NCBI GenBank assembly: GCA_021208605.1
Contig: JAJOJK010000002.1
Coordinates: 1-37,605 of the forward strand
DNA: 37,605 nucleotides
Direction of reading: 5' to 3'
Origin: Candidatus Woesebacteria bacterium
GTDB lineage: Bacteria > Patescibacteriota > Microgenomatia > UBA1400 > UBA1396
In this document: one piece after another, positions 5,899-35,181 of the stretch
How the letters are laid out: every line of letters starts with the position of its first letter
Position numbering within the stretch: the stretch's first letter is position 1
Notes under the pieces: generated by a model
What the model saw: only the letters and a program-made list of their open reading frames with translations
What the model was told of the DNA's origin: nothing
The model's database searches: none
Program-made: the position numbers and the translations under genes

Positions 5899-5904
5899 TA
5901 TAAG
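5899..5904 (+). promoter_or_regulatory. Putative -10 box for the FN3/ABC operon
   Basis: TATAAG 53 nt before the preferred start at 5958; no clear -35. Confidence 0.35.
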
Positions 5905-5957
5905 TGAGAACTGCCCTGTGGATGACGCGTTTGCACAAGTTACACTCGGCAGAAACT

Positions 5958-8900
5958 ATGATATTCAAACAACTGAATCGCATCATCTTAGCAGTAACTC
6001 TCTGCACATTTGCCAGTTTATTTTTTGCCCCCGCTGCCCAAGCCGCGAGCGTGAGCTGGGACGGTGGCGGTGACGGTTCCTCTTGGTCCGACGCCACCAA
6101 CTGGAGCGGCGATGCAGTGCCTGGGGCTGATGATGACGTCACGATCGATATGAGCAGCGTGACAGTGAACATTGGCGCGGCTACGACCATTAATTCTTTG
6201 ACTCTCGGTAATGCGAGTGGCACAACGGATCCGATTCTCAATTTTAGCTACGATGCATCTTTAGCCCCACTCGTTATTGATGATGGTGATTTTACTATTT
6301 ATACGAACTCGGTGCTGACACATACAGCTGGTACAACGGCTGTTCAAGGGAAAATCTATGTTGATGTGCAATCTGGCGATATGTTTGTGTATGGCAGCAT
6401 TAATGTAGAAGGAAAAGGGTTTCAAAGATTCTCAGGTGACGGAAAACCGTGCTGTAATGAACGTCAGACCGGTGGTGCTTCGCATGGTGGCATTGGTGGA
6501 AACGGAAACAGCGGGACGTATGGCGCAGGAAGTACTACCATCTATGGTTCTGAGACCGCTCCAGTCACCTATGGAAGTGGCGGTGGCTACGATAATGGCG
6601 CAGGAACCGGCTCTGATGGTGGTGGTGCGGTTCGGCTCACAGTGAATGGAACGCTCACGGTGAATGGATCTATTAACGCGAATGGTGAAATAGCCTATGA
6701 ATGGTCGATCTATTCTGCTGGTGCCGCCTCTGGAGGTTCCATTTGGTTGGATGTTGGCACACTCGAAGGCACTGGTTCGGTTACTGCCAATGGTGGTGAT
6801 GGTGGGATCAATTATTCCTATGAATCGGCTGCAGGTGGTGGTGGTAGAATTGCTATTTACTATGATACTGATTCCAACGACTTTTCTGCGCTGAGCGCTG
6901 ACGCCGGAGCACTAGTAAATGGCACGACCGCAGCTGGAGACGGAACCCTGTACTTAGTGGGTAAAGTGGGGACTCCCTTCAATACTAAACAGTTCAAAAA
7001 CGATGGCATTACTGCCATTGGTACCGGTGGGGAAACCGATGAAGTCATTGTAAAAGCCAGCTTCCAAGTGGCCGATGGCGACAATCCCGAAACACTTACT
7101 CCCGAAGTGGAAGTACGCGAAGTTGGCACCGATTTTTCAGACGTTGCCACCCACACCGGTGATGATATTACGTATTCCGGCGGCGCAGGTGCAGTGGCGA
7201 CCGTATCTATGACTGGTCTGGTTGATGGCGCGAGTTACCACTGGCAAATGCGAGCGTGTGATGACTCAAGCCAGTGTTCTGAGTGGCTGAGTTATGGCGG
7301 CAATGCTGAAAATGCGGCTGACTTTACTGTCAATCAAAACACGCTGCCCAACAACCCAACTATACCTGGTTCCTCTTTCTTTATTGGCGGACAATATACC
7401 AACGATGCTCAGCCGAGTATTAGTTTCGTGCTCAGTGACGAGAACTCTGGCGATTCCGTCAAATACCAAATTCAGATTGCCGATAATGCCGGCTTTACTT
7501 CTCCTGCTGTGAATTATGAGTCGGCGTTAGGCGCTCAAGGCACATTTACATTTACTGTTGGTCAAGCCGAAGGAACCGGATCATATACAGCCGGAACTGA
7601 GGGACAAGAACTCACGAGCGGCAACTACTACTGGCGCGTAAAAGCGATTGATAGCAACGATGGCGAGTCCAGTTGGACTACTGCCTCTGGTACGCCAGCA
7701 TTTATTGTCGATCTCGTCGATCCTACTTCAGCGTCGAACGTGGTAGTGAAAGCGACTGCCGGCGCTTCATCTTCTTATTCCAGCCAAGAAGATGCCGTAT
7801 GGATGAGCAGCAACAGTCTCTATTTCGACTGGGATGCTGGTACTGACGCTTCCGGCGTAAAAGGATATTGTTTGTACTTAGGCACCAATCCAGTGGGTGA
7901 TGCCGCCACCGACAGCGGTATTTTAGGCTCTTCTCCGGTCAGCACAACTGGAAGTACCTGTGAATTTATTGTCGAGGACACGGAAGTCGATTTTGCCAAC
8001 ACCGCTTTGCGCAGCTATGACTGGCTCCAATCAAGTTCAGAGCCGTACTACTTTAAGATCAAGACGATTGATGAGGCCAACAATATTTTCGATGGCTCCG
8101 AGACAACCAATTCTGTTCCGTTCTACTTTGACAAAACAGCTCCATCCAATGTGTCGGCGTTATCGGCCACGAGCGGCAGTCTTTCCAGCGTTGGTAGCAT
8201 GTTTATCAGTTGGCCCACTTCTGGTGATGATGCCGCCGGCGACGCGCACTCTGGGATACTCGGCTTCCAGTATGGAATTAATTCGCGTAACACCTGGTAC
8301 GGTGCGAATACCGACGACACCACTGGCTTGAAATATACATCTTTAGGCGTTTCTCAACCATTCTATTTCCCGAGCTCCGTGCACAACTTGGTGAATTTAG
8401 GTCAAAATACAATTTATTTCCGTGTGCTTGATATTGCGGGGAATGTGTCTGAACTGCGTTCTGCCATTGTGAATTTTGGCGGTTCTGCGCCTGAATTTGC
8501 CGAGGATGATGAAGTCATTGTCACTCCGGAGCGTAATACCGAAAACAGTTTTGCGTTTAGTTGGCCAGAGGCTTCTCCATCGGCTGGTCGAACAGTATCA
8601 AAATACTACTACATGTTTAATACCACTCCACCTTCTCAACTTTCTACCATTACCTCGAATTCGGCCACATATAAATCCACCACCGGTCGGAGTATTTCTG
8701 CCGGAAGAATGCCTGGTTTGATTAAAGGGACAAACACTATCTATGTGGTAGCTGTTGATGACAACAATAACTACTCACAGTCCAACTCAATTCGCGCGGA
8801 TTTTGTATTGGATACAGAACTCCCAGATCCTCCATCGAACGTGACTGTAGCAGATAATTCGATTAAGTCGGCCTCTCTATGGCGCGCTTCGATAGTTTGG

Positions 8901-10367
8901 GAAGCTCCTTCTTACAAAGGTACTGGAGATTTAACGTACGTTGTACAGCGCTCTGTGGATGGAGACGAGTGGGAAGACGTGACAACTACCACGGGGAATG
9001 CCTACGTGGATACTGTATCGGAATCGAAACAGTACTATTGGCGCGTAGGTACGATGGATAATTCTGATGAATCAATTGCCGCTCCGTCGTATTCCAGCGC
9101 GGTTACGCTTACTCCGAAAGGTGCTTATACTGAGCCAGCTGATCTCACTTCCAATCCAGCCGCTTCCAACATTACAACAACAGACGCTACGATTAGTTGG
9201 ACCACTTCCCGTGAATCAGATAGTCGAGTGCTATATGGTTTGAAATCTGGAAGCTACTTTGAGGCTGAGCCTTCGAAATCTGATCAGGTAACGCAACATT
9301 CTATTCCGCTTGATAACCTTGAGCCTGGCACCAAATATTTCTACAAAGTTCGTTGGACGGACGAAGACGGAAATACTGGGGAAAGTGATGAATATGATTT
9401 CGCCACGGCTCCGCCACCAGAAGTCAAAAATGTTGAAGTGAGCAGCATAGGAGTGAGTACGGCAATCGTGAACTTCACTACTACGAATGCTTCCCAGGCG
9501 AAAGTCTACTTTGGGCCGTCAACAGACTTTGGTGGTGTGCGTGAACTCTCCACTTCACAACTGGAAAGTACCTACACAGTAGAACTGACTGAACTGCAAG
9601 ATGGCACGGAGTACTACTACCGCATTAACACGATTGATAGTGAAGGTAATGAGTATGAAGGAACCATCTTGCGTTTCCAAACGTTACCACGACCGGTAGT
9701 GTCCAATATTCAAGTGGAGCAGATTTCGAATACAGCGCAAACTTCTATTGTGGTTACCTGGCAATCAAATACTCCAATTACCTCGGTGGTGACCTATTAC
9801 CCACAAAATCAACCCGAATTAGTGCGAGACCAAGTGGATATTTCTCTGGCTGATGATGACCACTCAATGATCATTAAGGGCCTTTTCCCAGATACTACGT
9901 ATCTATTAAGAGTGAGTGGTCGCGACGCTATTGGTAACGAAGCGGTATCAGAGCCAATTACGGTTACGACGGCTCTAGACTCACGTCCGCCAGCAATTTC
10001 TGCTTTGTCGGTGGAAGGTGCGAATATTGATACTGTCCGTGATCTGGCGAATCCTTCGCAACTGATTGTTTCTTGGACCACCGATGAGCCTTCTACCTCC
10101 CAGATTGAATTCGGCGAAGGTACTGGGACTTCATATACTCAGCAGACACAAGAAGATATGACTTTATCCTTCAATCATGTGGTGGTTATTCCGAATCTTT
10201 CACCATCTAAGGTGTACCATTTACGCGCCATTTCTCGTGACTCTGCTGGCAATGAAAGTCGCAGTGTCGATACGGTTACTATTACTCCCAAAGCCACCGA
10301 TCAGGCACTGGATCTGGTAATAACGAATTTACGCGATGCCTTTGGATTTTTAGGAGACTTTCTATGA
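5958..10367 (+). CDS. Large secreted/surface protein: signal peptide, Gly-rich N-terminal region, several fibronectin type III-like repeats
   Basis: MIFKQLNRIILAVTLCTFASLFFAPAAQA signal peptide from the ATG at 5958 (ORF track GTG start 5904); repeated patterns such as TTDATISWTTSRESDSRVLYG and LEPGTKYFYKVRWTDEDGN. Confidence 0.88.
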   Translation: MIFKQLNRIILAVTLCTFASLFFAPAAQAASVSWDGGGDGSSWSDATNWSGDAVPGADDDVTIDMSSVTVNIGAATTINSLTLGNASGTTDPILNFSYDASLAPLVIDDGDFTIYTNSVLTHTAGTTAVQGKIYVDVQSGDMFVYGSINVEGKGFQRFSGDGKPCCNERQTGGASHGGIGGNGNSGTYGAGSTTIYGSETAPVTYGSGGGYDNGAGTGSDGGGAVRLTVNGTLTVNGSINANGEIAYEWSIYSAGAASGGSIWLDVGTLEGTGSVTANGGDGGINYSYESAAGGGGRIAIYYDTDSNDFSALSADAGALVNGTTAAGDGTLYLVGKVGTPFNTKQFKNDGITAIGTGGETDEVIVKASFQVADGDNPETLTPEVEVREVGTDFSDVATHTGDDITYSGGAGAVATVSMTGLVDGASYHWQMRACDDSSQCSEWLSYGGNAENAADFTVNQNTLPNNPTIPGSSFFIGGQYTNDAQPSISFVLSDENSGDSVKYQIQIADNAGFTSPAVNYESALGAQGTFTFTVGQAEGTGSYTAGTEGQELTSGNYYWRVKAIDSNDGESSWTTASGTPAFIVDLVDPTSASNVVVKATAGASSSYSSQEDAVWMSSNSLYFDWDAGTDASGVKGYCLYLGTNPVGDAATDSGILGSSPVSTTGSTCEFIVEDTEVDFANTALRSYDWLQSSSEPYYFKIKTIDEANNIFDGSETTNSVPFYFDKTAPSNVSALSATSGSLSSVGSMFISWPTSGDDAAGDAHSGILGFQYGINSRNTWYGANTDDTTGLKYTSLGVSQPFYFPSSVHNLVNLGQNTIYFRVLDIAGNVSELRSAIVNFGGSAPEFAEDDEVIVTPERNTENSFAFSWPEASPSAGRTVSKYYYMFNTTPPSQLSTITSNSATYKSTTGRSISAGRMPGLIKGTNTIYVVAVDDNNNYSQSNSIRADFVLDTELPDPPSNVTVADNSIKSASLWRASIVWEAPSYKGTGDLTYVVQRSVDGDEWEDVTTTTGNAYVDTVSESKQYYWRVGTMDNSDESIAAPSYSSAVTLTPKGAYTEPADLTSNPAASNITTTDATISWTTSRESDSRVLYGLKSGSYFEAEPSKSDQVTQHSIPLDNLEPGTKYFYKVRWTDEDGNTGESDEYDFATAPPPEVKNVEVSSIGVSTAIVNFTTTNASQAKVYFGPSTDFGGVRELSTSQLESTYTVELTELQDGTEYYYRINTIDSEGNEYEGTILRFQTLPRPVVSNIQVEQISNTAQTSIVVTWQSNTPITSVVTYYPQNQPELVRDQVDISLADDDHSMIIKGLFPDTTYLLRVSGRDAIGNEAVSEPITVTTALDSRPPAISALSVEGANIDTVRDLANPSQLIVSWTTDEPSTSQIEFGEGTGTSYTQQTQEDMTLSFNHVVVIPNLSPSKVYHLRAISRDSAGNESRSVDTVTITPKATDQALDLVITNLRDAFGFLGDFL

Positions 10368-11116
10368 GCACACCTACTTCCGCTATCACCGCTGAGGGAA
10401 TTTCCAAGTCATTTGAAGTTGGAGACCAGCGCGTACCAGTGCTAAAAAATATTTCATTTACAGTGAAACAGGGTGAATTTTTGGTTATTTTTGGTCCTTC
10501 TGGTTGTGGGAAGTCCACTTTGCTCCACGTTTTACTCGGTCTCGAGTTCCCGACCAAAGGTTCGGTCCAGATACACAATAAGAATATCTATGGTATGAAC
10601 GAAGATGAGTTGGCTGACTTTCGAAAACACGAAATTGGCATGGTATATCAACAACCCCACTGGGTGAAAGCGTTGAATGTGTTGGAAAATGTTGCTTTTC
10701 CACTCACACTTATGCGCGTTGAGAAAGAGCAACGCTTACAGCAAGCTCTGGAGCTGCTTCGCATGGTGGATATGGAAGACTGGGCACACTATTTACCATC
10801 TGAACTTTCGAGTGGACAACAGCAACGGGTGGCTCTTGCCCGCGCCATTATCAGCAATCCTGATCTGATAGTAGCCGATGAGCCCACCGGAAACTTAGAT
10901 TATGAAGCTGGTTTGCAGCTGATGAGTTTGTTGGAAAACATCAATAAGAAAACGGGCAAAACCGTTATTATGGTTACGCATGACTTGGAATACATGCCGT
11001 ATGCCACGCGGGCTTTGGAGATGTTGGATGGTGAAGTTATCAAAGAGGTCACCAACACAAATGCCTACGCCCAAAACGGCAATATCCCGCTGAAACGTGG
11101 AAATGGAAAACACTAG
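10364..11116 (+). CDS. ABC transporter ATP-binding protein, MacB/LolD type
   Basis: Walker [10 protein letters not shown], signature [14 protein letters not shown], Walker [17 protein letters not shown] overlap with the upstream stop. Confidence 0.97.
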
Positions 11117-12953
11117 TATGAAACTGCCCTCTGACTCCAACCGTCGTTCTTTTCGCCAATTCGTGGACTTTGTTTTGAGTCCCCTCTCATTGATGGCATT
11201 GATTATTCTCTATTGGCTGTATTTTATTTTAGAAAAAGCTGCCGCACGATTTCCACGCGTAAAGCGTCTGCGTCAGCGAATTTGGCAATCTGCAAAACTG
11301 CTTGATCCGCCAGCCAAGAAGCCAACCATTTCTCGTATTGATATTATCGAGCTGGCCCTGAAAAACATGCGAAGCAAGCGCATTCGCACACAAATCACTA
11401 TTTTCGGTATGACGATTGGTATCGCCGGCATTGTTTTCTTGGTTTCAATTGGCTACGGATTGCAAGATCTCGTGGTCAAACGAGTAGCTCGCCTGGAAGA
11501 GATGCGCCAAATTGATGTCACTGTTCCACCAGGAAGTAATCTCACTATTACTGAGAATTCTCTGCGTGACTTTGCCCAAATGGCCGATGTGCAAACGGTA
11601 GCTCCCATGATTGCTTTGGTGGCGCGCGCCAGTTATCAAAACTCAGCTACAGATCTTGTTGCGTATGGTGTGACCAGTGACTTCCTTGAGCAGTCGGCAA
11701 TCAAACCAGTCGAAGGACAGATTTTTACAAGTAACGAAATTGTTGTCGAACGGGAAAATGAACAGTCATCTTCGGGAGAGGATGCAAATGTAAATGCAGC
11801 TCGGGAAGCGCTTATTACGCTGGAAGCGGAAACCTGGTACCGAGTACGTGAAAATCCCAATCCAAATGCTCCCCTGCTCGGATATACGCGCTCAACTGGT
11901 AATGAGTATCCAGCAGAGATGGTTACCGGTGAAGAATATTTGGTCGGCACCGAACTCTCTAATGCTTGGGTGCGTGCTGAGGTGCCACTCTGGACCGAAA
12001 ACAACGGTGAGTATGAACCTGTCCGGGCGGATTCGGATCGTCAAGTGTATCGCTTTGGGTACATCACAGAGTCGAACTTGACGGTAATTCCGCTCAATGG
12101 AGAGCGTGAAAGAGGTCTATTGGAAGGACAATCAACGACCAAGCAAGTCAAACTTCCAGACAGCATTTCGCAAGATGTGGTCGTAAACCTGGCCACACTG
12201 CAGGTTCTGGGAATTCAACAAGAAGACGCGGTTGGCGAGGTATTTGAAGTTTCGTTTGTCGTTACGGGAGACCTTTTAGAGGATAAAGATACAAAGATTC
12301 AGTCATTCCCAGTTTCCTATCGCATTGTTGGTGTGACTCCAGATGATCGCTCCGCCATTATGTATGTTCCGTTTGCTGATATGCGCTTGCTCGGTGTGGA
12401 TCGTTTCTCGCAAGTCAAGGTAACCGTGAATGCGGAAAACCGTTTGCAACGAGTGCGCGATCAAATTGAGACACTTGGTTACAATACCAGCTCGGTTGTA
12501 GATACGGTGGTTCGCATCAATAGTATCTTCGGCACAGCCCGCACCATGTTGTTGGTGGTTGGTATGGTGGCGCTTATCATTGCTTCACTGGGCATGTTTA
12601 ATACACTCACAGTTTCACTGCTGGAGCGTACCCGCGAAGTAGGATTGATGAAGGCCATGGGACTGAAGTCCTCAGAAATCCGCGAACTTTTCTTGGCAGA
12701 GTCCATGATTATGGGCTCGGCTGGCGGAGTACTCGGACTCCTCGGAGGATACCTGAGTGCGAAAGTACTTGAAGTGATTCTATCTCTGTACACCCTGTAC
12801 AAAGGCGTTGGCTACATCTCAATCGCCAGTATCCCTTTCGGTTTCGCTCTGCTGATCTTGATTCTCTCGTTTGGAGTCGGACTTTTGACTGGTTACTATC
12901 CGGCCCGTCGCGCTACCAAGATTTCTGCCTTGAATGCATTACGATACGAGTAA
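11097..12953 (+). CDS. MacB/FtsX-type ABC permease with an internal SH3b-like insertion; start may be 11118
   Basis: N-terminal MacB core region (IELALKNMRSKRIRTQITIFGMTIGIAGIVFLVSIG), C-terminal FtsX region (LGMFNTLTVSLLERTREVGLMKAMGLKSSEIRELFLAES ... YYPARRATKISALNALRYE). Confidence 0.93.
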   Translation: MEMENTSMKLPSDSNRRSFRQFVDFVLSPLSLMALIILYWLYFILEKAAARFPRVKRLRQRIWQSAKLLDPPAKKPTISRIDIIELALKNMRSKRIRTQITIFGMTIGIAGIVFLVSIGYGLQDLVVKRVARLEEMRQIDVTVPPGSNLTITENSLRDFAQMADVQTVAPMIALVARASYQNSATDLVAYGVTSDFLEQSAIKPVEGQIFTSNEIVVERENEQSSSGEDANVNAAREALITLEAETWYRVRENPNPNAPLLGYTRSTGNEYPAEMVTGEEYLVGTELSNAWVRAEVPLWTENNGEYEPVRADSDRQVYRFGYITESNLTVIPLNGERERGLLEGQSTTKQVKLPDSISQDVVVNLATLQVLGIQQEDAVGEVFEVSFVVTGDLLEDKDTKIQSFPVSYRIVGVTPDDRSAIMYVPFADMRLLGVDRFSQVKVTVNAENRLQRVRDQIETLGYNTSSVVDTVVRINSIFGTARTMLLVVGMVALIIASLGMFNTLTVSLLERTREVGLMKAMGLKSSEIRELFLAESMIMGSAGGVLGLLGGYLSAKVLEVILSLYTLYKGVGYISIASIPFGFALLILILSFGVGLLTGYYPARRATKISALNALRYE

Positions 12954-12986: not shown

Positions 12987-14210
12987 TTATTTTCGGACAA
13001 ATAAAATGGCGTTAGGAATGTTTCTGCCTGGTCCTGCTTTATAGCCGCCGGACCACAAAGCAGTAGAACCACCACTATCTAAGTTGATGGCATTTTCCAT
13101 ACCGAGCGCACGTAACGCCCAGGCGGCCTCAGCCACTGTGGCCGAGTGAACGACGCCAATATACACCGTATTCCCCTTGTTCGCGACAAAACTGCGATTC
13201 CCTTTGCTCCCTTTTTTGGGATCACCGTCACCAGTGAAACGAATTTCGTTGCCACTCAAAAGTAAAGGAAAGTTGGAGAGTACTCCAGTCGGAGCAGTAT
13301 CGCGGCCCCACTGAGATGCAGCTCCCACAAAGCGAACTGAACCATCAAAAAAGATAACCGCTGGATTGGTACTATAGACATTGTTTTCGGAATTAAAATA
13401 GGTTTTATCTTTGTTCATGACCAGGAGATCAAACGAATTCGTTTTTCCCGCACAAGAAGGATAGCTGGCCGGACAAAAGTAGGTGCCGTTGATACCCGCG
13501 TAAGCTCCATTGCGGCTCACATAGTCTGATAATGGCAAAACTGGACAGTCGTTGGCGCAGTCGCTTCCACTTGCTGTATCGACAATGACGCGCGTGCTGC
13601 TCAAATCACCAGCAACCAGGCTGACCACGAAGGAACCAATATCCGTCTGCACTTGCTGACGACTGTAGCCGCTATTCGGTGCGTCATTGCTTGTGGTACT
13701 TGCTGTGGGAGCTGGGATGGCGGCCGCGGCGGCGAGTTGTTGTTCAGCGGCGGAGATATTGGTTTGCAGAGTTGCTAGTGAGGCTTCAGCGGAAGCATAG
13801 TTATGATCAGCAAGAAACGCGAGGATTTGCGCCCAAGTTTCTTCCAGCTCTTTGGTATCGTAGTTCCGGTCTTGTAATACTAAGAGTCGCTCGTATTCTG
13901 TTGTGGCTTGCGTGTTCGCAGTCTTGAGGTTCTCGAGTTGTTCTTGCAAGGCATCGTTCCGGACGCGCTGATCTTCGTTTTGGAGCTTCGTAAGCGTGGC
14001 AGACAGACTGGCGGAGTACTCAGCGCTGCTGCGATTTTCATTTTCCAACGAGCGAACATAGGCCGAGTATGATTGCCAATTATTCCAAGCGAACCAAGTT
14101 GCGATGGTTATTCCAATCAAAAGCGCACTGCCAGCCAGGGAAGTCCACACGAAGCGCTGCTTTTCGCGCCAGAATGTTTGGAGTTGGAGAAATCGGGCAG
14201 ATTTGGGCAT
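12987..14210 (-). CDS. Phosphodiester glycosidase (NAGPA/DUF2233-type) with N-terminal TM helix and coiled coil
   Basis: YAGINGTYFCP, APTGVLSNFPLLLSGNEI, NAINLDSGGSTALW, GRNIPNAILFV; N-terminal hydrophobic segment then Gln/Glu/Leu-rich heptads. Confidence 0.85.
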   Translation of the reverse strand: MPKSARFLQLQTFWREKQRFVWTSLAGSALLIGITIATWFAWNNWQSYSAYVRSLENENRSSAEYSASLSATLTKLQNEDQRVRNDALQEQLENLKTANTQATTEYERLLVLQDRNYDTKELEETWAQILAFLADHNYASAEASLATLQTNISAAEQQLAAAAAIPAPTASTTSNDAPNSGYSRQQVQTDIGSFVVSLVAGDLSSTRVIVDTASGSDCANDCPVLPLSDYVSRNGAYAGINGTYFCPASYPSCAGKTNSFDLLVMNKDKTYFNSENNVYSTNPAVIFFDGSVRFVGAASQWGRDTAPTGVLSNFPLLLSGNEIRFTGDGDPKKGSKGNRSFVANKGNTVYIGVVHSATVAEAAWALRALGMENAINLDSGGSTALWSGGYKAGPGRNIPNAILFVRK

Positions 14211-14213
14211 GGT

Positions 14214-14492
14214 TTACCGATGTGGAATGGGTTCTATAGTTGTTTCTTCTACGTTGACCCAAAACGTATATTCTTTGTCTGCAACAGAAAAAGAAACATA
14301 CACGCGAGAGGTGGTCAGATCAGGAACGGTATCCACCGTGGCGTGAAGTAATTGTTCGGGAGTAATATCAGGTTTTTGTGTTTCAAACCAGTTGATAACC
14401 AACTGAATGGCATCTGCGGCTCGGTAGCGAGCTTTTTCGGCTATCTTTGATTCTTCTAATGGATTTATGTCTTGTTCTGGAATATCTGCCAT
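14214..14492 (-). CDS. Small hypothetical protein (92 aa)
   Basis: ATG at 14492 preceded by AGAAGGAGAAAAAT; ORF track start (14576) lies inside the upstream gene. Confidence 0.7.
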   Translation of the reverse strand: MADIPEQDINPLEESKIAEKARYRAADAIQLVINWFETQKPDITPEQLLHATVDTVPDLTTSRVYVSFSVADKEYTFWVNVEETTIEPIPHR

Positions 14493-14518
14493 ATTTTTCT
14501 CCTTCTTTCTGCAGCCTA

Positions 14519-17173
14519 TCACATTTCTTCCCATAAATTGGTAAGATTTCCCGAATACATGGCCGTACCGAACCAAGCCCAGTTTTGAGTGTAGTAGTTT
14601 TGCGGGTCTTCCCAGAAGCTGTGTTGCTCGTCTTCGTAGAATTTTTGCTTGAGTTGCGTTTCGTAGATGCGTTCTGCTTCATCTGGCTGTACGGCCATGA
14701 AAAGTCCAATAGTGGCACCGTAGGCAGCCGCGGATTCGTAGCTCTCCCATACTTCTCCCGTATGTCGATAGGCAACAGAGATTCGACCGTTCTCTTGCCA
14801 CTCGTTTATGAGGAAGCTCAGTTTTTCTAAATACACCAGAGCCCGCGGATCTTCGTTCCATTGGTAGTCGAGCGCCACACGCCAGGGTACGCGGATGGCA
14901 TTGTAGGAATAGTCGGTGCTGGAAAGCCCCTCCTCTACAGACACCTGGCGCGCTGTTCCACTAGGAGTAATTTCACACCACTCGGGTGGAAGGAAAACAC
15001 TTGTATCATGACCGAGAGAACTTGCAGAGCATTTTTCCAACACTTCGTAACTCGTGTCGACAACAGATTTCCAGTTATGATTCGGATCTACCTCTTGAAA
15101 GATGCGGTAACTATACGGCGCAAGGTAAGATGGGTTGATAACTACACCTGGATACTGTTGAGCCCATGGTCCAGGTAAGAGATAGTATTTGCCGTTCATT
15201 TCCTTTACTTCGTGTTCCCAAATGGCGTCGATGACTTTCTCGGCTTGGATGCGGTAGGAGTCGTCATTCCAGCGTCTGGAAGCAAAGAGGAGGGCCAGGG
15301 CGATATCTTGGTCGGCATCGGTGGCCGAGTCAATGTCGATAGTGCCGATTTGGCCACTTTCATCTGGTCGGTACCGCCAAGAATAAAGCATGTCTTCATT
15401 GCGGAGGCGCTGATTGGCCCAAGTGAGTACTTCATCAAAGGTTTCTTGATCATTCATCCACACTGCTCGCAATAAGGCATAGGACTGGCCTTCCGAAGTG
15501 GTAATTTGGTTCTGTTGAAGATCGATTACCTTTCCGTTGGCAATGGAGTAGTCTTTGTATGAGTTCCAGGATCGCTCTAGAATGTGATGCGGATAGTAGG
15601 GTCGCCAAAACTCAACACTCCATCCGTCAGATTTGAACGATTTCCAGATACGAGAGTTATTGATAACGGTGGACGTGAGTGGTGAACTTCCAGAGAATAG
15701 ATCACCTTGCATCTGCGGTGTTTGCGCAACGAGGTCAACACGAGAGGGATCTTCAGCCAAGAGATCTTCGCGTACATCGGGATCTTGGTCAACTTTCCAA
15801 TACCACTCGGCGTCAGGAAAGACCAGGGTGGATGGGTTATCCGTGTCTTGCAGATCGATATACGCGTAGTTATCAATAATGATGATATCATCTGGCTGCA
15901 TGTGGTCACGAATCCACTGTACGGCCTCTAATTGGGCTTTGGTTTGTTGGCTCTGAAAGAAGAGATAGGTGCTTTTGGGATTGGCGAAAATATATTCTCT
16001 TTCATAGAGGAAAGCGTATCCAATAAAAATACTACCAATTACCAGCACGTACAGCCCAGTTCGCAGAGATTGATCTTTAAAAGCTTTTAAGAATGTTTGG
16101 AATCCTTCATGAATACAAATTGCACAGAATGCCGCGGCGAGTGGAATATACGGAACGATGTAGAAATCAATTACTACTCCACCGCGCATGAGGAAGAGGA
16201 TGAAGCCGAGTCCAAGCAGACCGAGTCCGGCATAAATACGACGGGAACGAATGAAAGCAATCAGAAGGACCGCGAGGTTCGCTAGTGGCCCAACAAACAT
16301 CAGAAAAGGATCCTGTTTTTTCCATTGCTGGTAGTGACACCAGATAGCTTTGGTTTCACAAACCAGAGAACTATTTACTCGTGATGATTGGTATTGCAAA
16401 GTGCCGAGCAGACTGACATGCTCCTCTGTTCCACCAAGTAAATGCCCAGTAGGAAAGAGTTCTCCTTTGAGGAGCGCGTACAAAAAGTAGAGGGAAATCA
16501 CGGACCCGCTAATCATGAGCCATTTCAGTAGAGCCAAATAGCGATGATACGAATGGGAAGATAAATACAGTGTCAGTAAAAATCCTGGAATGAAAAAAAC
16601 GGCATTTTCCTTCGTGAGCACAGCGATACCAAAACACAACGCGCTCAAAAAAACATGATTCATTTTCAGTTTATCGCGCAAAATGAGTAAGTAGGAAAGC
16701 AAACCCCAAAATACCATGATGTTATCAAGCAGGATTCGCCGCTGATAATAGAGACCAAGTGGAGATATTGAGAATAAGATGCCCGCAATGGCTGCTGCCC
16801 AGTTACTGCGTGTCATCCGCCGGGTGATGAGCATCAGTAGCAAGGTAGAAACAACGTGCAGCACCAGCATGAAGACTCGGCCTGTATTGAGCGAAAACCC
16901 AAAGGTATAAAACCCACCGGTCACAAAAGTCCAGAGAGCAATGAAGATCCAGCCTCCTGGTGCGTGATCATACCAGTACGTGTATGGAGCAAGTTTCCCT
17001 TGTGTTACGAGTGACCATGCTTGTGACATGTAGACACCCTCGTCGTTCTCGTAGTACGGAAAATGGAACATGTTGTGTCCATGAAATATGGCAACAAAAA
17101 TGAGTACTGCCGCAAAAAGAAAGACCGCTACCCAGTCTTTTCGAATGGGCGTAAAGGGAATGTTACGAAGCAT
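14519..17173 (-). CDS. GT-C membrane glycosyltransferase (GT39/ArnT-like) fused to a C-terminal glycoside hydrolase family 8 domain
   Basis: N-terminus: YENDEGVYMSQAW and many TM segments. C-terminal ~370 aa: SEGQSYALLRAVW, ATDADQDIALALLFASRRW, NPSYLAPYSYRIF, YSYNAIRVPWRVALDY. Confidence 0.85.
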   Translation of the reverse strand: MLRNIPFTPIRKDWVAVFLFAAVLIFVAIFHGHNMFHFPYYENDEGVYMSQAWSLVTQGKLAPYTYWYDHAPGGWIFIALWTFVTGGFYTFGFSLNTGRVFMLVLHVVSTLLLMLITRRMTRSNWAAAIAGILFSISPLGLYYQRRILLDNIMVFWGLLSYLLILRDKLKMNHVFLSALCFGIAVLTKENAVFFIPGFLLTLYLSSHSYHRYLALLKWLMISGSVISLYFLYALLKGELFPTGHLLGGTEEHVSLLGTLQYQSSRVNSSLVCETKAIWCHYQQWKKQDPFLMFVGPLANLAVLLIAFIRSRRIYAGLGLLGLGFILFLMRGGVVIDFYIVPYIPLAAAFCAICIHEGFQTFLKAFKDQSLRTGLYVLVIGSIFIGYAFLYEREYIFANPKSTYLFFQSQQTKAQLEAVQWIRDHMQPDDIIIIDNYAYIDLQDTDNPSTLVFPDAEWYWKVDQDPDVREDLLAEDPSRVDLVAQTPQMQGDLFSGSSPLTSTVINNSRIWKSFKSDGWSVEFWRPYYPHHILERSWNSYKDYSIANGKVIDLQQNQITTSEGQSYALLRAVWMNDQETFDEVLTWANQRLRNEDMLYSWRYRPDESGQIGTIDIDSATDADQDIALALLFASRRWNDDSYRIQAEKVIDAIWEHEVKEMNGKYYLLPGPWAQQYPGVVINPSYLAPYSYRIFQEVDPNHNWKSVVDTSYEVLEKCSASSLGHDTSVFLPPEWCEITPSGTARQVSVEEGLSSTDYSYNAIRVPWRVALDYQWNEDPRALVYLEKLSFLINEWQENGRISVAYRHTGEVWESYESAAAYGATIGLFMAVQPDEAERIYETQLKQKFYEDEQHSFWEDPQNYYTQNWAWFGTAMYSGNLTNLWEEM

Positions 17174-18425
17174 GTGACTCCCGGTGTGAATTCAAGTGTG
17201 TTGTTTTTTCCCAAGTATTTTGGCCTTGAGTGAGGTGAATAACACCCCGGAATGCTGCGATGCTCAGAAGAATTTGGTAAGGAAAATATGTTAATAAAAT
17301 GTGAAATGGTAAAAGGAGTGAGTAGGAGTATCCATAGCCGCGTGTAAAGGTATAGAGTCCGTAGTTATAGAGAACAAGCTGAATGAGTAATACGTAGGCT
17401 GGCAGGAGTGAAAACATTGCCCAGACCACAGGGAGCTCCAAAAACAGCATAGCAATGATTGTGAGTGGAAGATAAAAAATCCACAACGCTTGTATGAGTG
17501 GCATGATTAATAAGTAAGCCGTGAAGAGTTGACGACGTACACCAAGTAATTGTCGCCACTCAAAACGAAAAAAGATTTGTAGAAAACCTTGATTCCAGCG
17601 AGTGCGTTGTTTGATGAACTCAGCAATGGTGGTAGGTGTTTCTTCATGAGTTGTATGCGCTTCGTCATACACGATACCAATGTTAGCGCCTTGGAGAGAC
17701 AGACGAATTCCTAAATCTGCGTCTTCGGTTAGAATGTTTTCCGACCATCCATTTACACTTTTCAGTAGAGACTGGCGAATGAAAACAGTGTTTCCTCCTA
17801 GAGGCACTACACCAAATTGTGCATAAAAATGGAGAGCAGACTTAAACCAAAAGTAGTATTCAAGTACGTTCAAAGCTGAAAACCACTTAGAGGTGTAATT
17901 AATAAGTTGTACTCCTGACTGGAGGACGTCGTACTGGTGATCAATCATGAGCGTATTTACAATTTGCAAAATATCTGGATGAGGTTCGTCTTCGGCATCA
18001 AAAACAGCGACTACATCATTCCGGGCGTTTTTGAGACCAATATTCAGGGCCTTAGGTTTGTTGTCGATAGACTTGCTCACTATTTGAAGGCGAACCAATT
18101 GATTTTGCAGAGTGGGAATGACATCTCGCACAGCAGTAATGGTTTTCGCATCATCTTCGCGACATAAGACGATAACCTCGTAGAGTTCTGCCGGATAATT
18201 AAGTGAATTCATGGCGTGTAACGTATCGGCAATGACCTCAGCCTCGTTGCGTGCGGGAACCAGCAGACTGAAAGAATGGACAGGTGTTTGGAATTGTGTG
18301 GGAGATTTTCGCAAATGGAGCGTGTGTGGGTCGTTCCATGAGTAGGTCATGGTCAGGAGCGTGAAGAGAGAGTGAAAGAGCAAAATGAACGAGATAGCGA
18401 TAATAAGTATCGATACTAGTGTCAT
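17163..18425 (-). CDS. Processive-type family 2 glycosyltransferase (cellulose/PNAG-synthase-like, no PilZ)
   Basis: LLVPARNEAEVI, VFDAEDEPHPD, ILTEDADLGIRL, QRTRWNQGFLQ; N- and C-terminal TM segments. Confidence 0.92.
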   Translation of the reverse strand: MTLVSILIIAISFILLFHSLFTLLTMTYSWNDPHTLHLRKSPTQFQTPVHSFSLLVPARNEAEVIADTLHAMNSLNYPAELYEVIVLCREDDAKTITAVRDVIPTLQNQLVRLQIVSKSIDNKPKALNIGLKNARNDVVAVFDAEDEPHPDILQIVNTLMIDHQYDVLQSGVQLINYTSKWFSALNVLEYYFWFKSALHFYAQFGVVPLGGNTVFIRQSLLKSVNGWSENILTEDADLGIRLSLQGANIGIVYDEAHTTHEETPTTIAEFIKQRTRWNQGFLQIFFRFEWRQLLGVRRQLFTAYLLIMPLIQALWIFYLPLTIIAMLFLELPVVWAMFSLLPAYVLLIQLVLYNYGLYTFTRGYGYSYSLLLPFHILLTYFPYQILLSIAAFRGVIHLTQGQNTWEKTTHLNSHRESHAS

Positions 18426-22759: not shown

Positions 22760-24184
22760 CTACTCAACTACATCAAGTACAGCCGGACCAGAAAAATGCA
22801 GTGTTCCCTCCTGCTCGTACCGATCCAGCGCATTGGCCGGGTAATACACGTAGATGGTGCGCGCCACAGCACTGCTCATGTGCGTATCAGTTCGCAACCA
22901 CTTCTCAAAATACGGTTCTTCTAAGGCAATGCGCGCACTTTGCGCGGGTGGATGGCCTGCATACCAGAGTAAATACTGGTAATGATCATCGGCGGCATCA
23001 TAGACGTCGAGATGACCGCGATAAACCAACGCGTATGGCTCTTTTTGCGCCAGCTCAAGAATCGATTCCACCACCGGCAGGTGATCCGCAACGGTTTGAC
23101 CACGGAGTTCCGGCAAAACAGAAAACGCTTGTAGTGACCACAGGCCAAAGAAGCCAATCGCACCTGCCAGAGAAAACACCTGCCAACGAGGTCGGAAAAG
23201 TGATTGCAGACCAACGGGGATGACTATCGCCGGCGCCAAGAACAGAATGGCCAGTGCGTGATCGCCACCGACGGTTTTTAGTGTAAAGGCCATCATGCTC
23301 AAGGAGATCCAGACCAGGAGAATTGTTTCGTGTATCGGTGGTAAGAGCTGTGCACGCCAGCGGTCCCAGAGGTGCAAACACCAGAACACCAGTGTCGAGG
23401 CAAATATGACAAAGAGGAGTGTGGCGGCAAAGGGTGTCTGCGGAAAAGTGGCCAAAAGCCATTCGCGCGTCCAGTAGGCAAAGGAAGTCGTGCCGCGAAC
23501 TGCGCGCACGAGCAAGAGCAAACCACTGAGGAAGATTCCGGTGCCAATAATGCGTTGCTTCCAAACTCGATCAATACTGTCGGTAAACAAGAGCCAAATA
23601 ACAGCTTGCGCGGCCCACAAGACGGCTGCGGAAAAATTAAACTGGATGCCCAAAACGGGCAAAAGCGCTGCCGCCATCCACCACCGTCGGTTGTTACCCT
23701 GAACGGCTTCGGTCATACTCCACAACCACGCAATGACGATCAGCGGCAAAGGACTCGGCTCAATAGCGATTCGTGCCTGCCAAGTGACCAGTGGTGACAG
23801 GGCATACAGAAGCCCACTTACTACGGCCAAAATTTGGTTCTGCCAGTTACGCCAGACGTAAAGATACAGAAACGCAGTGGTAAACACACTCATTCCGGCC
23901 ACCATGACCGCTGGTCCAATGGGATGAAAATTGGAGAACCACAAAGCAACGGCCGTGAGGTAGTAATACAGCGGCCCCAGAGAGATGCCGGCCACAGAAG
24001 TTGCCGGCCCTTGCAATACGAAATCCCCCAGCAGAATATCGCGACCGGCAAGCATGGCACGGCCTTGGTCAGTAGAGAAAATAAGCCATTCTGGTAAGTT
24101 GTAGAAACGGAAAAACAGCACAACACTCAACACAATACTGAACCCAATTACGGCAGGCACAGTGCGGGCGGTGTCGGTACTCAT
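22760..24184 (-). CDS. GT39/ArnT-like membrane glycosyltransferase
   Basis: Multi-TM protein, STDQGRAMLAGRDILLGDFVLQGPATSV near the N-terminus; ATGA overlap with the parB stop. Confidence 0.8.
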   Translation of the reverse strand: MSTDTARTVPAVIGFSIVLSVVLFFRFYNLPEWLIFSTDQGRAMLAGRDILLGDFVLQGPATSVAGISLGPLYYYLTAVALWFSNFHPIGPAVMVAGMSVFTTAFLYLYVWRNWQNQILAVVSGLLYALSPLVTWQARIAIEPSPLPLIVIAWLWSMTEAVQGNNRRWWMAAALLPVLGIQFNFSAAVLWAAQAVIWLLFTDSIDRVWKQRIIGTGIFLSGLLLLVRAVRGTTSFAYWTREWLLATFPQTPFAATLLFVIFASTLVFWCLHLWDRWRAQLLPPIHETILLVWISLSMMAFTLKTVGGDHALAILFLAPAIVIPVGLQSLFRPRWQVFSLAGAIGFFGLWSLQAFSVLPELRGQTVADHLPVVESILELAQKEPYALVYRGHLDVYDAADDHYQYLLWYAGHPPAQSARIALEEPYFEKWLRTDTHMSSAVARTIYVYYPANALDRYEQEGTLHFSGPAVLDVVE

Positions 24185-25008
24185 GATTTTTGTTTGTTGG
24201 CGATAGACAGAATCAGATCAAGTTGTTTTTGCGTGTCTTGGATAGAACCATTGAGCTTAATATTGACTTGCGTTTGGCGGAAAGAACGGCGGATTTTGAC
24301 ATCAGAATCTTTTCCGAGAGCGCGATTCAGCTCTTTCGTCCAGCGATCAATATCTTTGGAAACTTGCAAGCGAGGCTTGTGTTCCTCATCTTTTTGCCCG
24401 GCCTCATTTTTGCTGCGGCGAACAAGTTCTTCGGTTCGGCGAACAGAGGCATTCTCTTTGAGCACCTGCTTGTAGGTGTCGATCATGACTTTGGTGTCGT
24501 TGATTCCCTGTAAGGCGCGGGCGTGGCCTTCGGTAATGAGCTCACTCAATAAGCCATCTTTAATGGCATCGGGAAGTTGCAGCAGACGAATCGAGTTGGT
24601 GACGTAGGAAACTGATTTTCCAATTTGTTTCGCTGTCTCAGTGGGAGATAAGTTAAATTCTGAGCTGAGGCGGTTCAGAGCATGAGCCCGTTCTATTGAG
24701 TTCAGATCAGAACGCTGGACGTTTTCGATAATCGACATCTCCAGCATGCCACGCGGAGATGTTTTTTTGACCACTGCCGGAATAGTTGGTAGTCCAGCCT
24801 TTTTTGTGGCGCGCCAACGGCGTTCACCCGCAATGATCTGATATCCAGCCGGTGTATGGGCAATGACAATTGGTTCTAAGACACCGTGGAGCTTGATAGA
24901 TTCCACCAAATCATTGAGTTCCTCGGGGTCGAGGTGTTTACGTGGTTGGTGGGGGTTCGGTTGGATCTGGTTGACGTCCAGTTCCTGTATCATTTGTCCA
25001 TCTGCCAT
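24181..25008 (-). CDS. parB: ParB/Spo0J-family chromosome partitioning protein
   Basis: IQPNPHQPRKHL, YQIIAGERRWRATKKAGLPTIPAVV, ENVQRSDLNSIERA, helix-turn-helix LSPTETAKQIGKSVSYVTNSIRLLQLP. Confidence 0.96.
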   Translation of the reverse strand: MADGQMIQELDVNQIQPNPHQPRKHLDPEELNDLVESIKLHGVLEPIVIAHTPAGYQIIAGERRWRATKKAGLPTIPAVVKKTSPRGMLEMSIIENVQRSDLNSIERAHALNRLSSEFNLSPTETAKQIGKSVSYVTNSIRLLQLPDAIKDGLLSELITEGHARALQGINDTKVMIDTYKQVLKENASVRRTEELVRRSKNEAGQKDEEHKPRLQVSKDIDRWTKELNRALGKDSDVKIRRSFRQTQVNIKLNGSIQDTQKQLDLILSIANKQKS

Positions 25009-28984: not shown

Positions 28985-31821
28985 CTACTCTACCAGGCTA
29001 ATAGAGAGTGTATCACCTTCTGCTAACTGCACAGCCTTCGTCTTTTCTTTGATTTCGGCTTCGAAATCACTTGGCCAAGACGGGGCGGTCACGATAATGG
29101 TGGCGTCAAGATCAACATTCTGCTCTTTGCGCAGGCGTTGGATGGAGCGGATGAGTTCGCGGGCTTCACCTTCGGCCTCAAGATCTGGTGTGAGTACGGT
29201 GTCGAGTTCGGCGGAAAGGTCCGCGTTTTCTTCTTGTGTCCACTCTACTCGCTTTACGTTAAGCTCTTGCTCCACCACAGAGAGAATTTCTGCTCGCGGT
29301 TGCTCGGATGCCGACACAATTCGAATACTGGCCAATGGCTGGCGAACCTTGATGCCGCTTTCGCGGCGGGCGGCGTGGCCTTGTTCTACTGGCTTGCGCA
29401 CGGAAGCCATTTCTTCGAGCAAGACTTCATTGAGGAACTCTTCGTTGACAGTGGGCCACAGTTCAAGATGCACACTGTCCTGTTCTGGATGCAAATGCAA
29501 GTACATGGCTTCGGTAATGAATGGAACAATTGGGGCGGCAATCAGCGCAAATTGCTTCAAAACGTAGTGGAAAGTATTCCAGCTCTGCTCGTTGGCGTCG
29601 TCGCGGAGGCGCTCGCGGGATTGGCGTAGGTACCAGGTGGACAGTTCGTCGACAAACTCAATGATCAAGCGACCAGCGGTGGTGATGTCGTAGTTGTCCA
29701 TGGCATCGGTCATTTCGCGCTTGGTGCCTTCCAGGAGGGCCAAGATCCATTGGTCCATGACATTGTCGGAATCTGGCTGCTGAGGCTGCCACGAGGCCGG
29801 TTTGTAGAGCTGATAGAAGGAAAAGACGTTCCACCAGATATTCAGGATGCGTTTGCGGATCATCTCGACGTCTTCGTCTTTGAAGGCCAAGTTCTCGGCT
29901 TTGGCAACAGGCGATGACATCAAGTAGAGACGGAGAGCATCGGCGCCGGACTGGTCCAAAACGGTCATGGGATCACTGTAGTTCTTCTTGGATTTGCTCA
30001 TTTTGCTGCCATCAGCGGCCAAAATGACACCGGTGTTATGAATATTCGTGACCGCAGGCTGTCCAAAGATACCAACCGACAACACATGCATGGTATAGAA
30101 CCAGGCGCGGGTTTGGTTAATGTACTCCGACACAAACTCGGCTGGATACGCCGCGCGGAACTTTTCTTCGTTTTCAAATGGGTAGTGACGAGAAGCGTAT
30201 GGCATGCTGCCACTCTCGACCCACACGTCAAAGACTTCTGGGATGCGGGTGCCTTGAATGGTGCGCTCGTCATCGAGCCAGATGGCGATGTCGTCAACGA
30301 ACTCGCGGTGGATGTCGGTCAGATTCTCGACTTGTTCTGGGTTAACGGCCCACTCTTTCAGTTCGGCCACGGAGCCAATAATGCGCATGTGTTGGCCTGA
30401 TTCGTCTGTCCAGACTGGCATTGGTGTGCCCCAATAACGGGACCGGGAGATATTCCAGTCAGGCGCGGATTGGATGCCTTTGGCAAAGCGGCCATGTTTC
30501 AAGTGCTCGGGGTACCAGTTGATCTTTTCGTTTTCGGCTAAGAGTTCGTCTTTGAGGTTTTGGACGTCGATAAACCAGGCCGGCAGTGGTGCGTAGTACA
30601 AACGAGTGCCACAGCGGTAGCAGACTGGAATGCTGTGGGTATATTTTTCGCGCTTGTAGACTAAGCCGCGGGACTCGAGTTCGTCATCGATGGCCGGGCT
30701 GATTTTCCAGAGGAATTTGCCGACCCACTCGTCGTTTTGGATGGTTTCGTCGAGTTTTCCTTCTTCGGTGATGTAGTCATAGAGAGGAACATCGTGCGCC
30801 TGCATGACGCGGAAGTCATCTTCACCGTAGACGGCCAAGGTTACAGCACCGGTACCGCGTCGTCAGTCACGAAGGTGTCGGTGACGATGCGATACGCTTG
30901 GTCTTTTGTTTCGTTTTCTCCTGGTGTCCACCAGTCAAAATGCGAGGTGTAGTGGGCATAGCGTTGACTGAGCTCGGTGCCAGTGAGTTCGTCTGCAACC
31001 TCATACTCGCCATCTAAAACGGCTTCAACTCGAGATTTGGCAACGATGTATTTTTCTTCACCTTGTTGGGCAATGACATATACCAAATCAGGATGCACGG
31101 CCAAAGCCATGGTGCCGATTTTGGTCCACGGCGTGGTTGACCAGGCTAATAGGTAGGTGTTTTCGGCAACTTCAAACTTATACGTCGTGCCTTCATCGGT
31201 AACGTCTTCGTAGCTGTTGTCCATGGCGATCTCGAAGTTAGAGAGCGGCGTGCCACAGCGCGGACAGTACAAAATGACCTTTTTGCCCTGGTAAACACGT
31301 TTTTTCTCGTAGAGTTCTTTGAACGCCCACCAGACTGACTCCATGTAGGACATGTCCATGGTTTTGTAGCTGTTCTTGAAGTCAACCCAACGGCCAATAC
31401 GGCGGATGATGACATCCCAGGTGGCGTCGATTTCTTGAATGGCGGAGCGACAGGCGTTATTAAAGGTGTCGATACCCATTTCCTCAATCTGGCGGCGACC
31501 GCTGATACCGAGCTCTTTCTCGATCATGTTTTCAATGGGCAAACCATGACAGTCCCAGCCCCATTGGCGTTCGACTTTGTAGCCTTTCATGGTCCAGTAG
31601 CGAGGCACGACGTCCTTGGCGATAGAACCCAAGATGCTGCCGTAGTGTGGCGAACCGGTCACAAATGGCGGACCATCGTAGAAAACGTAGGGTTTGTTGT
31701 CGGGGCGTTCGGAAACTGAGCGTTCAAAAGCACTAATCGAATCCCAGTGCTCGAGTACTTTCTCTTCGAGGTTGGGAAGATTTTGCCGCTGGCGAAAATC
31801 GATTTGTTGCAGTTTGCTCAT
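28985..31821 (-). CDS. ileS: Isoleucyl-tRNA synthetase, disrupted by an apparent -1 frameshift near 30841-30864 (ORFs 30841-31839 and 28985-30838)
   Basis: N part: GPPFVTGSPHYGSILGSIAKDVVPRYWTM, WGWDCHGLPIE. C part: SRSRYWGTPMPVW, VWVESGSMPYA, GSKMSKSKKNYSDP. A -1 shift restores DDAGTGAVTLAVYGEDDFRVM. Confidence 0.95.
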
Positions 31822-31828
31822 GGTGCCT

Positions 31829-31834
31829 ATTATA
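31829..31834 (-). promoter_or_regulatory. -10 box predicting a leaderless ileS transcript
   Basis: TATAAT on the minus strand, 7 nt before the ATG at 31821. Confidence 0.6.
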
Positions 31835-31850
31835 CACACGCGGAGAAAAA

Positions 31851-32526: not shown

Positions 32527-33837
32527 TTATCCGCGTTTTCGGCGCAGGAAGGCGGGAATGTCGAACTCGTCATCGTCATCAGTCTCGACTGCGGTATCGT
32601 TCGGCGTCGTATCTTGGGTGACAACGGGTTCTGGCTGAGGTGGCTGGGCCATTGGTTGTTGGCGTTGGAATGGTGAGCCAAATGTGGGTGGATTGGCTGG
32701 CGCTTGTTCCTGATTGGAGCGAATTTTTACCGTATTGTGTTGCAACGGTACATTTTCATCAGGTTCTGGCTCCTTCTCCACTGATGGTGCCGCTGCCGGA
32801 GTTTTTGGAGTGAGTTGTTCGCGGCTTTCTTCTGAGTAGGCACCAAAACTTGGGCGCTTGTAGGCGGCAGGACCGTAGCTGTCATTTTCAAATCCTGTTG
32901 CAATAACCGAGATTTTGATTTTGTCGCCCATGTTTTCATCGATAGTGGCACCGAAGATGATGTTGGCATCCGGATCAGTGGCCTGGCTAATAATCATCGA
33001 GGCTTCAGAGATTTCTGGCAGCGTTAAGTTCTTGCCACCAGTAATGTTGTAGAGAACTCCCTTGGCACCATTGATAGAAACATCGAGCAATGGTGAAGAA
33101 ATCGCGGCACGAGCGGCTTTGACAGCCCGGTTGTCACCGCTGGACTCACCGATTCCCATGAGCGCATTACCAGAGTCAAGCATAATGGTTTTTACGTCAG
33201 CAAAGTCAACATTGACTAAACCTGGCTTGGTGATGAGATCAGAAATACCTTTGACACCCTGGCCGAGCACGCTATCGGCTAGATGAAAGGCTTCGATAAG
33301 TGTCATTTGTTTATCGACAACGTCGAGTAAGCGTTGGTTGGGGATTACGATGAGTGTGTCGACGTGATCAGCAAGTTGATCTATACCATCTTCGGCGACG
33401 GTGCCACGTCGCATGCCCTCAAACATGAATGGCTTGGTAACGACAGCGACTGTCAGCGCACCAGCTTCTTTGGCCAACTCAGCGACTACTGGTGATGCGC
33501 CGGTACCAGTGCCACCTCCCATGCCCGCGGTAATAAATACCATATCGGTATCGAACATGAGTTCTTTGATCTTTTCGCGTGATTCTTCCGCGGCTTGGCG
33601 GCCAACTTCTGGGTCAGCACCGGAGCCGAGCCCTTTGGTATAGTTGCTGCCAATTTGCAGTTTTGATTCTGCTTTGCTGGCTAAAAGAGCTTGTGCATCC
33701 GTGTTAATGGCTACAAACTCAACGCCATCAATTTCGGCCGTATCGATCATGGACTGCACCGCATTGCCGCCACCACCACCGACACCGATGACTTTAATTC
33801 GTGCGAAGGAGTTGTTCTTTGGTTTAACGAGTCCCAT
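32527..33837 (-). CDS. ftsZ: Cell division protein FtsZ
   Basis: [30 protein letters not shown] tubulin signature, C-terminal [12 protein letters not shown]. Confidence 0.99.
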
Positions 33838-33870
33838 ATATATACCAATCTTGTCAGATCATCATACCAT

Positions 33871-35181
33871 TCATGGCATAAAGAGTTTAACGAGCTTTTT
33901 AATGCCTTCGGTAATTCCCTCAGCATTGAGTTTGGGAGTGAGGTTGCCAAGTGCAAAGGAGCTTTCTTTGTGAGCTTGCCAATTTCCGGTTTGTTGGGCG
34001 TACAGGAGTAAACCTGTCGCGGTAGCGTACATGGGGGTTTCGATTTCGTCGATCAAACCACGCAAACCAGCTGGTTTACCAACTCGAGCGGGTAAATTGA
34101 TGGTTTTCTTGGCGACATCGAGTATTCCGGCCGTGTCAGCGCCGCCACCGGTAAGAATCAATCCTGCTGGAATGTCATTTTTCAGCTTTTGTTTGCTGAT
34201 TTCGTCGTCGATTAAGTCAAAGATTTCGCGAAGACGCGGGGCGATAATGCCATCTGTGAGTGTGGTACGGGACAAGTAGCGGGTTTCATCGACTAAACCG
34301 AGCTGATGCAGATCAAGTTGGTCTTCCTGCTTTTTGCGTTTGCGCGCTTCTTCGCGGGACTCATCGGGCAGACGACTCGGTGATTCCGGTGGCATGTGAG
34401 AAAGGGCAATCTTAATGCGCTCGGCGGAAGGAATGCTCACGCGCGAACCAAGTGCAATGTCTTTGGTGATGTGCAGCGCACCAACAGGAATAACGGTGGA
34501 GTACATCAGCGAACCCTCTACAAAGACACTCATGGCACTAGAACCGGCGCCGATATCAATGACGGCCACCCCGAGTTCTTGCTCCGTTTCGTTGAGAACG
34601 GAGTAAGCAGATGCTAACCCGGAGAAAATAAAGTCGGCAACTTGAATACCCAGAGATTCGACGCTTTTACGAATATTCTTCATGACGGTGGTCGAACCAG
34701 TAATAATATGCGTTTCGGCTTCGAGCCGCACACCTGACATTCCAATCGGATCTTTAATGCCCTCTTGCGAGTCAACTTTGAAGGAAGTGGGAACGACGTG
34801 CAGAATCTCTCGATTTGACGGCAAGGAAACGGCGCGGGCGGCTTCAATAACGCGGTCGACGTCTTCGTGCACGATGTCGCCCTGCGGATCAGCGACGGCG
34901 ACAACGCCTTTAGAGTTTTGCGACTCGATGTGCTTCCCGCTCACTGAAACATACGCTTGGGTAATACTAAATCCGGCCATACGCTCGGCAGCATCGACAC
35001 TTTCGGTGATGGCAGAGGTGGCTTCTTCGAGATTGACGATCTGGCTTTTGCGAATACCTTGGCTTTGTACGGAAGACGCTCCCACAACGCGCAACTCACC
35101 ACCTTCTTCCACGATGGCAATTAAAGTGCACACTTTGGCGGTTCCAATATCAATGGCGGCGATGACGGTATTCTTGGACAT
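33871..35181 (-). CDS. ftsA: Cell division protein FtsA
   Basis: AAIDIGTAKVCTLIA, VAVIDIGAGSSAMSVF, ILTGGGADTAGI; C-terminal amphipathic GIKKLVKLFMP. Confidence 0.97.
   Translation of the reverse strand: MSKNTVIAAIDIGTAKVCTLIAIVEEGGELRVVGASSVQSQGIRKSQIVNLEEATSAITESVDAAERMAGFSITQAYVSVSGKHIESQNSKGVVAVADPQGDIVHEDVDRVIEAARAVSLPSNREILHVVPTSFKVDSQEGIKDPIGMSGVRLEAETHIITGSTTVMKNIRKSVESLGIQVADFIFSGLASAYSVLNETEQELGVAVIDIGAGSSAMSVFVEGSLMYSTVIPVGALHITKDIALGSRVSIPSAERIKIALSHMPPESPSRLPDESREEARKRKKQEDQLDLHQLGLVDETRYLSRTTLTDGIIAPRLREIFDLIDDEISKQKLKNDIPAGLILTGGGADTAGILDVAKKTINLPARVGKPAGLRGLIDEIETPMYATATGLLLYAQQTGNWQAHKESSFALGNLTPKLNAEGITEGIKKLVKLFMP

Follow-up and report, generated by a model that had tools for sequence, protein, structure and literature searches.

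Patescibacteria mostly live attached to other cells, and to our knowledge almost nothing is known about their surface glycans. Four consecutive genes in a Woesebacteria genome raise the question of whether such a cell encodes a glycan assembly system of its own kind and, if so, which of the four genes belong to it. The original prediction treated all four as one module that makes, trims, and decorates a surface polysaccharide. The window analyzed here is the whole stretch of 37,605 nucleotides (C5:1-37605) from a 1.08-Mb genome that is 99.75% complete.

Organization of the Locus

All four open reading frames were confirmed as consecutive minus-strand genes, with coordinates and spacings exactly as first described:

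17163..18425 (−), GT2 membrane synthase, 420 aa; PF13641; DAED/TED/QRTRW motifs
14519-17173 (−), GT-C/GH8 fusion, 884 aa; PMT_2/PMT and PF01270
15583..17173 (−), GT-C (PMT/OST-like) half of the fusion, about residues 1-530; PMT_2/PMT; D44-E45 and WYDH motifs
14519..15582 (−), GH8 (alpha/alpha)6 domain of the fusion, about residues 531-884; E561, D621, and N758
14900..14902 (−), codon AAT (Asn758) at the GH8 catalytic base position (CelA Asp278), assigned from alignment columns
14214..14492 (−), 92-aa small protein; orphan, with no Pfam or NCBIfam family over the cut-off
12987..14210 (−), NAGPA-domain protein, 407 aa; PF09992; N-terminal transmembrane (TM) segment and coiled coil

Read from GT2 through GT-C/GH8 and the 92-aa protein to NAGPA, the genes are joined by an 11-nt overlap, a 26-nt gap, and a 3-nt gap. 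Shine-Dalgarno-like sequences (AGGAAG, GGGAG, and AAGGAG, respectively) precede the first three starts. The NAGPA start lacks such a sequence, so its translation is probably coupled to the upstream gene. Counts of promoter-like and terminator-like patterns at the locus showed no clear excess over shuffled sequences, so it is the spacing that points to one transcript for the four genes; the predicted operon fits the gene arrangement and draws nothing from these patterns. As anticipated, the window encodes no PilZ equivalent, and a domain search found none in the entire genome. Neither BcsB nor BcsC was recognized among the window genes.

Elsewhere on the minus strand, a division cluster (murG, ftsQ-like, ftsA, and ftsZ) occupies 32527-37093, and isoleucyl-tRNA synthetase (28985-31839) is carried by two ORFs with an apparent frameshift near 30840, representing either a real break or an assembly error. 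A second GT-C-like membrane protein (22760-25008) overlaps the end of a ParB-like gene. The plus-strand group at 5904-12953, convergent with the glycan genes, encodes a 1487-aa secreted repeat protein; an ABC ATPase and a MacB/FtsX-like permease, the latter carrying a long external insert, come after it.

Conservation of the GT2/GT-C Pair

Conservation was assessed in 93 genomes of the order and 286 of the class. Strong GT-C matches were found in seven of the order genomes, and strong GT2 matches in the identical seven and no others (Fisher p = 1e-10). The two genes adjoin in six of these, including G031, where an intact GT2 adjoins the fusion; in the seventh (G089), contig ends break the module. 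The GH8 fusion is whole on one contig in four of the seven, the window included, and two others (G083 and G086) carry the GT2/GT-C pair without GH8, with a GH5 cellulase nearby. Across the class sample, GH8 scored over the cut-off in 25 genomes, nine of which (again including the window) have it fused to GT-C.

A search of genome contigs with a single sequence (P0002) returned no match, while an alignment-based search with GT-C motifs gave matches. Two such motifs, run against named genomes, yielded at least 80 loci; the best 80, which come from Patescibacteria, Chloroflexi, and Actinobacteria, were used, and all figures per 80 loci are counts among these best matches listed rather than prevalences. 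Three of the loci may be mis-binned, namely L099 (from a bin called Methylophilaceae) and L094 and L116 (Chloroflexi). With GT-C motifs as the only bait, 75 of the 80 had GT2 directly upstream in the same orientation, and GH8 was fused or downstream in 49. Pairwise divergence of GT2 tracks that of GT-C with r 0.91 over 73 pairs, and with r 0.50 within Patescibacterial fusions and 0.90 within Actinobacteria (none of 2000 permutations reached the observed value in any of the three), a correlation that partly reflects shared descent of the genomes.

GT2 and GT-C/GH8 therefore form a conserved module, side by side across Patescibacteria, and its GT2/GT-C core, without the fusion, extends to Chloroflexi and Actinobacteria, which bears out the proposed pairing. 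No description of the module was found in the literature searched, with incomplete coverage, on Patescibacterial cellulose synthase, Microgenomates GH8, and GT-C/GH8 fusions. The pair is real and conserved, appears to be undescribed, and is apparently a variant of the synthase-dependent polysaccharide systems.

NAGPA and the 92-aa Protein

The claim to an undescribed system does not extend to all four genes. NAGPA (PF09992, E 2.5e-13) and the 92-aa protein are encoded near none of the 80 best related loci. Within the order, NAGPA is present in 40 of 93 genomes at sites unlinked to the pair (in G031, NAGPA is at 187762 and the fusion at 286542), and the 92-aa protein is an orphan with no relative in any of the 93. 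These distributions argue against a four-gene module. Judged from sequence, both are probably local passengers that may be co-transcribed with the pair here. A single functional unit, with NAGPA acting on a phosphodiester of the polymer, would agree with the co-transcription suggested by the 26- and 3-nt gaps on one strand, but given where these two genes are found among relatives, we regard it as very improbable. The proposed decoration by NAGPA likewise gained no support. Co-occurrence of NAGPA with the pair was considered and rejected: five of seven pair genomes and 35 of 86 others have NAGPA, and the genes are unlinked.

The GT2 Synthase

GT2 (PF13641, E 1.7e-38) has the D, DxD-like, TED, and QxxRW motifs of processive QxxRW synthases, the last being Q273-RT-R276-W277, along with a synthase fold: the best PDB matches of its predicted structure (pLDDT 91) are BcsA and the hyaluronan synthases (HAS). 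None of the 73 aligned pairs lacks the catalytic acidic residues or QxxRW, apart from a single Ser at the second Asp of DAED. This invariance was not forced by the search, since GT2 was unused for retrieval. Motif and modeled fold thus support grouping GT2 with processive membrane synthases. BcsA has eight TM helices and hyaluronan synthase six; the GT2 model has four TM-length helices, so translocation of the chain by GT2 is not assured. The best NCBIfam matches, PgaC/IcaA (TIGR03937, 89.9 bits, cut-off 422.3) and the XrtP-associated glycosyltransferase family (73 bits, cut-off 520), fall so far under their cut-offs that the product cannot be named. The CelA-type cellulose synthase family is also below its threshold (53 bits, cut-off 699), and plasmid sequence matches, all under 31% identity among those listed, are uninformative on the product.

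The minimal four-helix fold would also suit a glycolipid route, in which a non-processive GT2 glycosylates a lipid carrier, GT-C extends or transfers the lipid-linked glycan after it is flipped, and GH8 releases or holds that glycan. Polyprenyl-phosphate context is indeed frequent at the related loci, GT2 has weak HMM matches to the lipid-acting HpnI/HpnB, and PcManGT (6yv7), a small-fold archaeal GT2, ranks first by target-length TM-score (0.70) among the matches listed for the model. However, the profile alignment of GT2 with BcsA covers the invariant TED and QxxRW motifs, whereas that with PcManGT is confined to the N-terminus and contains neither, and the neighboring GH8 and GH5 enzymes act on polymers. 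We consider a glycolipid route somewhat unlikely. By motif, fold, and HMM, GT2 did not group with lipid-glycosylating enzymes, and its assignment as a QxxRW-type synthase held.

The GT-C Half and Its Proposed Donor

In the predicted structure of the fusion (pLDDT 88), the GT-C half has the multi-TM GT-C fold and the acidic motif in the first external loop expected of a polyprenyl-phosphate-sugar transferase, and it matches the Stt3/AglB oligosaccharyltransferases. D44-E45 is invariant in the 73 pairs, which is partly forced by the search pattern. A DPM1-like polyprenyl-phosphate-hexose synthase is encoded near 48 of the 80 best loci, and at least 10 relatives have a DPM1-like domain joined to the N-terminus of their GT2; in L065, a further such fusion recognized by eye, the N-terminal domain matches ArnC-type and archaeal polyprenyl/dolichyl-phosphate transferases. 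The DPM-like match in the window's genome (41%) is on another contig (C14), away from the pair. DPM-like synthase and GT-C together would constitute a donor arm of a known extracytoplasmic glycosylation type.

The acceptor of GT-C could be a protein or a lipid instead of a glycan. In the case of protein O-glycosylation, GT-C would modify a surface protein as a PMT-type transferase, and GT2 would supply or extend the glycan. In favor of this are the PMT/PMT_2 Pfam matches, the oligosaccharyltransferase-like fold, and actinobacterial loci in which GT-C and GH8 flank a DUF4397 protein and a class F sortase comes next after GH8. We judge it quite improbable, however, in view of the BcsZ-like domain tethered to GT-C and the fact that a conserved candidate acceptor protein was not seen beside the Patescibacterial pairs.

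The actinobacterial locus L134 (7343-13808) encodes, consecutively, GT2, GT-C, a DUF4397 protein, GH8, and class F sortase, and relatives L137-L165 have GT2, GT-C, a gene-sized gap, and GH8, often with a DPM-like synthase. In Arthrobacter, Curtobacterium, Microbacterium, and Mycobacterium, this gene content points to a sortase-linked glycan or glycoprotein system. No description of a system combining class F sortase and DUF4397 was found in the literature searched, the coverage of which was incomplete.

The GH8 Half

The GH8 half (PF01270, E 4.2e-46, 158 bits versus a cut-off of 24) aligns with E. coli BcsZ at a TM-score of 0.86 (2.4 Å) and with CelA at 0.81. The catalytic acid Glu (CelA E95) is retained as E561, as is the DAD aspartate. 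At the position of the catalytic base (CelA D278), the window's GH8 has Asn758. Most related GH8s keep the Glu/Asp pair intact; Asn at the base position has at least five independent origins on strongly supported branches of the GH8 tree, and several fused copies lack the acid as well as the base. Trimming of the chain, as first proposed, is therefore doubtful in the window's genome. The solved GH8 endoglucanase 5cd2 also has Asn at this position in the same alignment, which leaves inactivity of the window's GH8 as likely rather than proven. The PDB contains a D263N mutant of Rex (2drr). Glycosynthase precedent exists for base-less GH8, which the literature searched did not return.

Two loci combine both states: L103 (5936-11601) has two tandem fusions, one with an apparently dead GH8 and the other intact, and in L106 (8959-13723), the fused GH8 is dead, having lost its catalytic residues, while the separate GH8 that comes next is intact.

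GH8 beside GT2/GT-C is fused in one lineage and a separate gene in others. A second operon type, GH8-GT2-GT-C-GH5 with separate genes, occurs in many class genomes (L072-L084), and its GT2 is CelA-like (322 bits to TIGR03030). The GH8s of this type form one clade with the fused GH8 (support 100/99), the actinobacterial GH8s fall in another (100/100), and those of L068/L069 group with CelA (100/99). These separate clades indicate that GH8s of more than one lineage have joined the GT2/GT-C pair, which we read as suggesting a GH8-type substrate as the product of the pair. GH5 is encoded near eight of the 80 best loci, and a GH5 cellulase adjoins the pair in some relatives.

Within the second type, L072-L074 and L077-L084 share the order GH8, CelA-like GT2 without PilZ, and GT-C, with a GH5 cellulase adjoining in several, and represent a cellulose-like system in the same Patescibacteria class. 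The window's genome also encodes a secreted GH5 cellulase (G000:C20:31257-32195, L183), which carries two CBM2 domains, is not linked to the pair, and is 42% identical to the GH5 of this operon type.

Proposed Function of the Pair

With a probability of roughly 55%, we propose that the pair, as defined computationally by its homology, folds, motifs, and linkage, constitutes the core of a cell-surface glycan system of the synthase-dependent type, consisting of a beta-glucan-like synthase and an external, chain-modifying GT-C/GH8 partner. The predicted surface polysaccharide would thereby find its synthase unit in the pair, supported by motif and fold, with no share for NAGPA or the 92-aa protein. 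We infer what the polymer is, which donors are used, in which direction transfer runs, and what the base-less GH8 does. Working at the inner membrane face, GT2 would polymerize nucleotide sugar into a beta-linked, probably glucan-like chain and pass it across the membrane. The DPM1-like synthase would make polyprenyl-phosphate hexose, with which the GT-C half may decorate or anchor the emerging chain outside. The tethered GH8 half would hold the chain and cut it where the acid/base pair is intact; with Asn at the base position, the GH8 in the window's genome would most likely do no more than bind the chain or process it slowly.

A more speculative version, which we hold to be distinctly unlikely, is that the fused GH8 of the window's lineage is naturally base-less and no longer hydrolyzing and grips or transglycosylates a nascent glucan, presenting it to the tethered polyprenyl-phosphate-sugar GT-C and thereby coupling synthesis, decoration, and anchoring. 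If true, this would be a two-protein machine in which a hydrolase has been converted into a guide repeatedly in evolution.

The proposed synthase and chain-modifying partner define a two-gene target for the surface glycans of Patescibacteria. Homologues of the GT2/GT-C core occur in cultured Actinobacteria (Streptomyces, Arthrobacter, Curtobacterium, and Mycobacterium), so the product of the core is testable now. The module would extend the synthase-dependent polysaccharide systems by a GT-C arm and would supply GH8 domains that form a natural series from active to dead.

Comparison with Known Systems

The pair resembles the Bcs system (BcsA/BcsB/BcsZ/BcsC) in its QxxRW membrane GT2 with a BcsA-like fold and in having a BcsZ-fold GH8 in the unit. 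It differs in that PilZ is absent, GH8 is fused to GT-C, which is not a Bcs part, and, by HMM score, the PgaC/XrtP-type group is a closer match for GT2 than BcsA is. The PgaC/IcaA and XrtP-associated synthases are in turn the best matches of GT2, yet remote ones, and their partner genes are unlike those here. The available part of a survey of synthase-dependent operons describes no GT-C partner (PMC7112194). Three-component extracytoplasmic glycosylation (polyprenyl-phosphate-sugar synthase, flippase, and GT-C) shares the DPM-like synthase and GT-C, often found together, whereas here GT-C is joined to a QxxRW synthase and GH8; its precedents in lactococci and streptococci install side chains or anchors on polysaccharides (PMC10821137). 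The GH8-GT2-GT-C-GH5 operons have the same kinds of enzymes and a GH8 from the clade of the fused GH8, but they pair a CelA-like GT2 with a GT-C of another lineage and keep GH8 as a separate protein.
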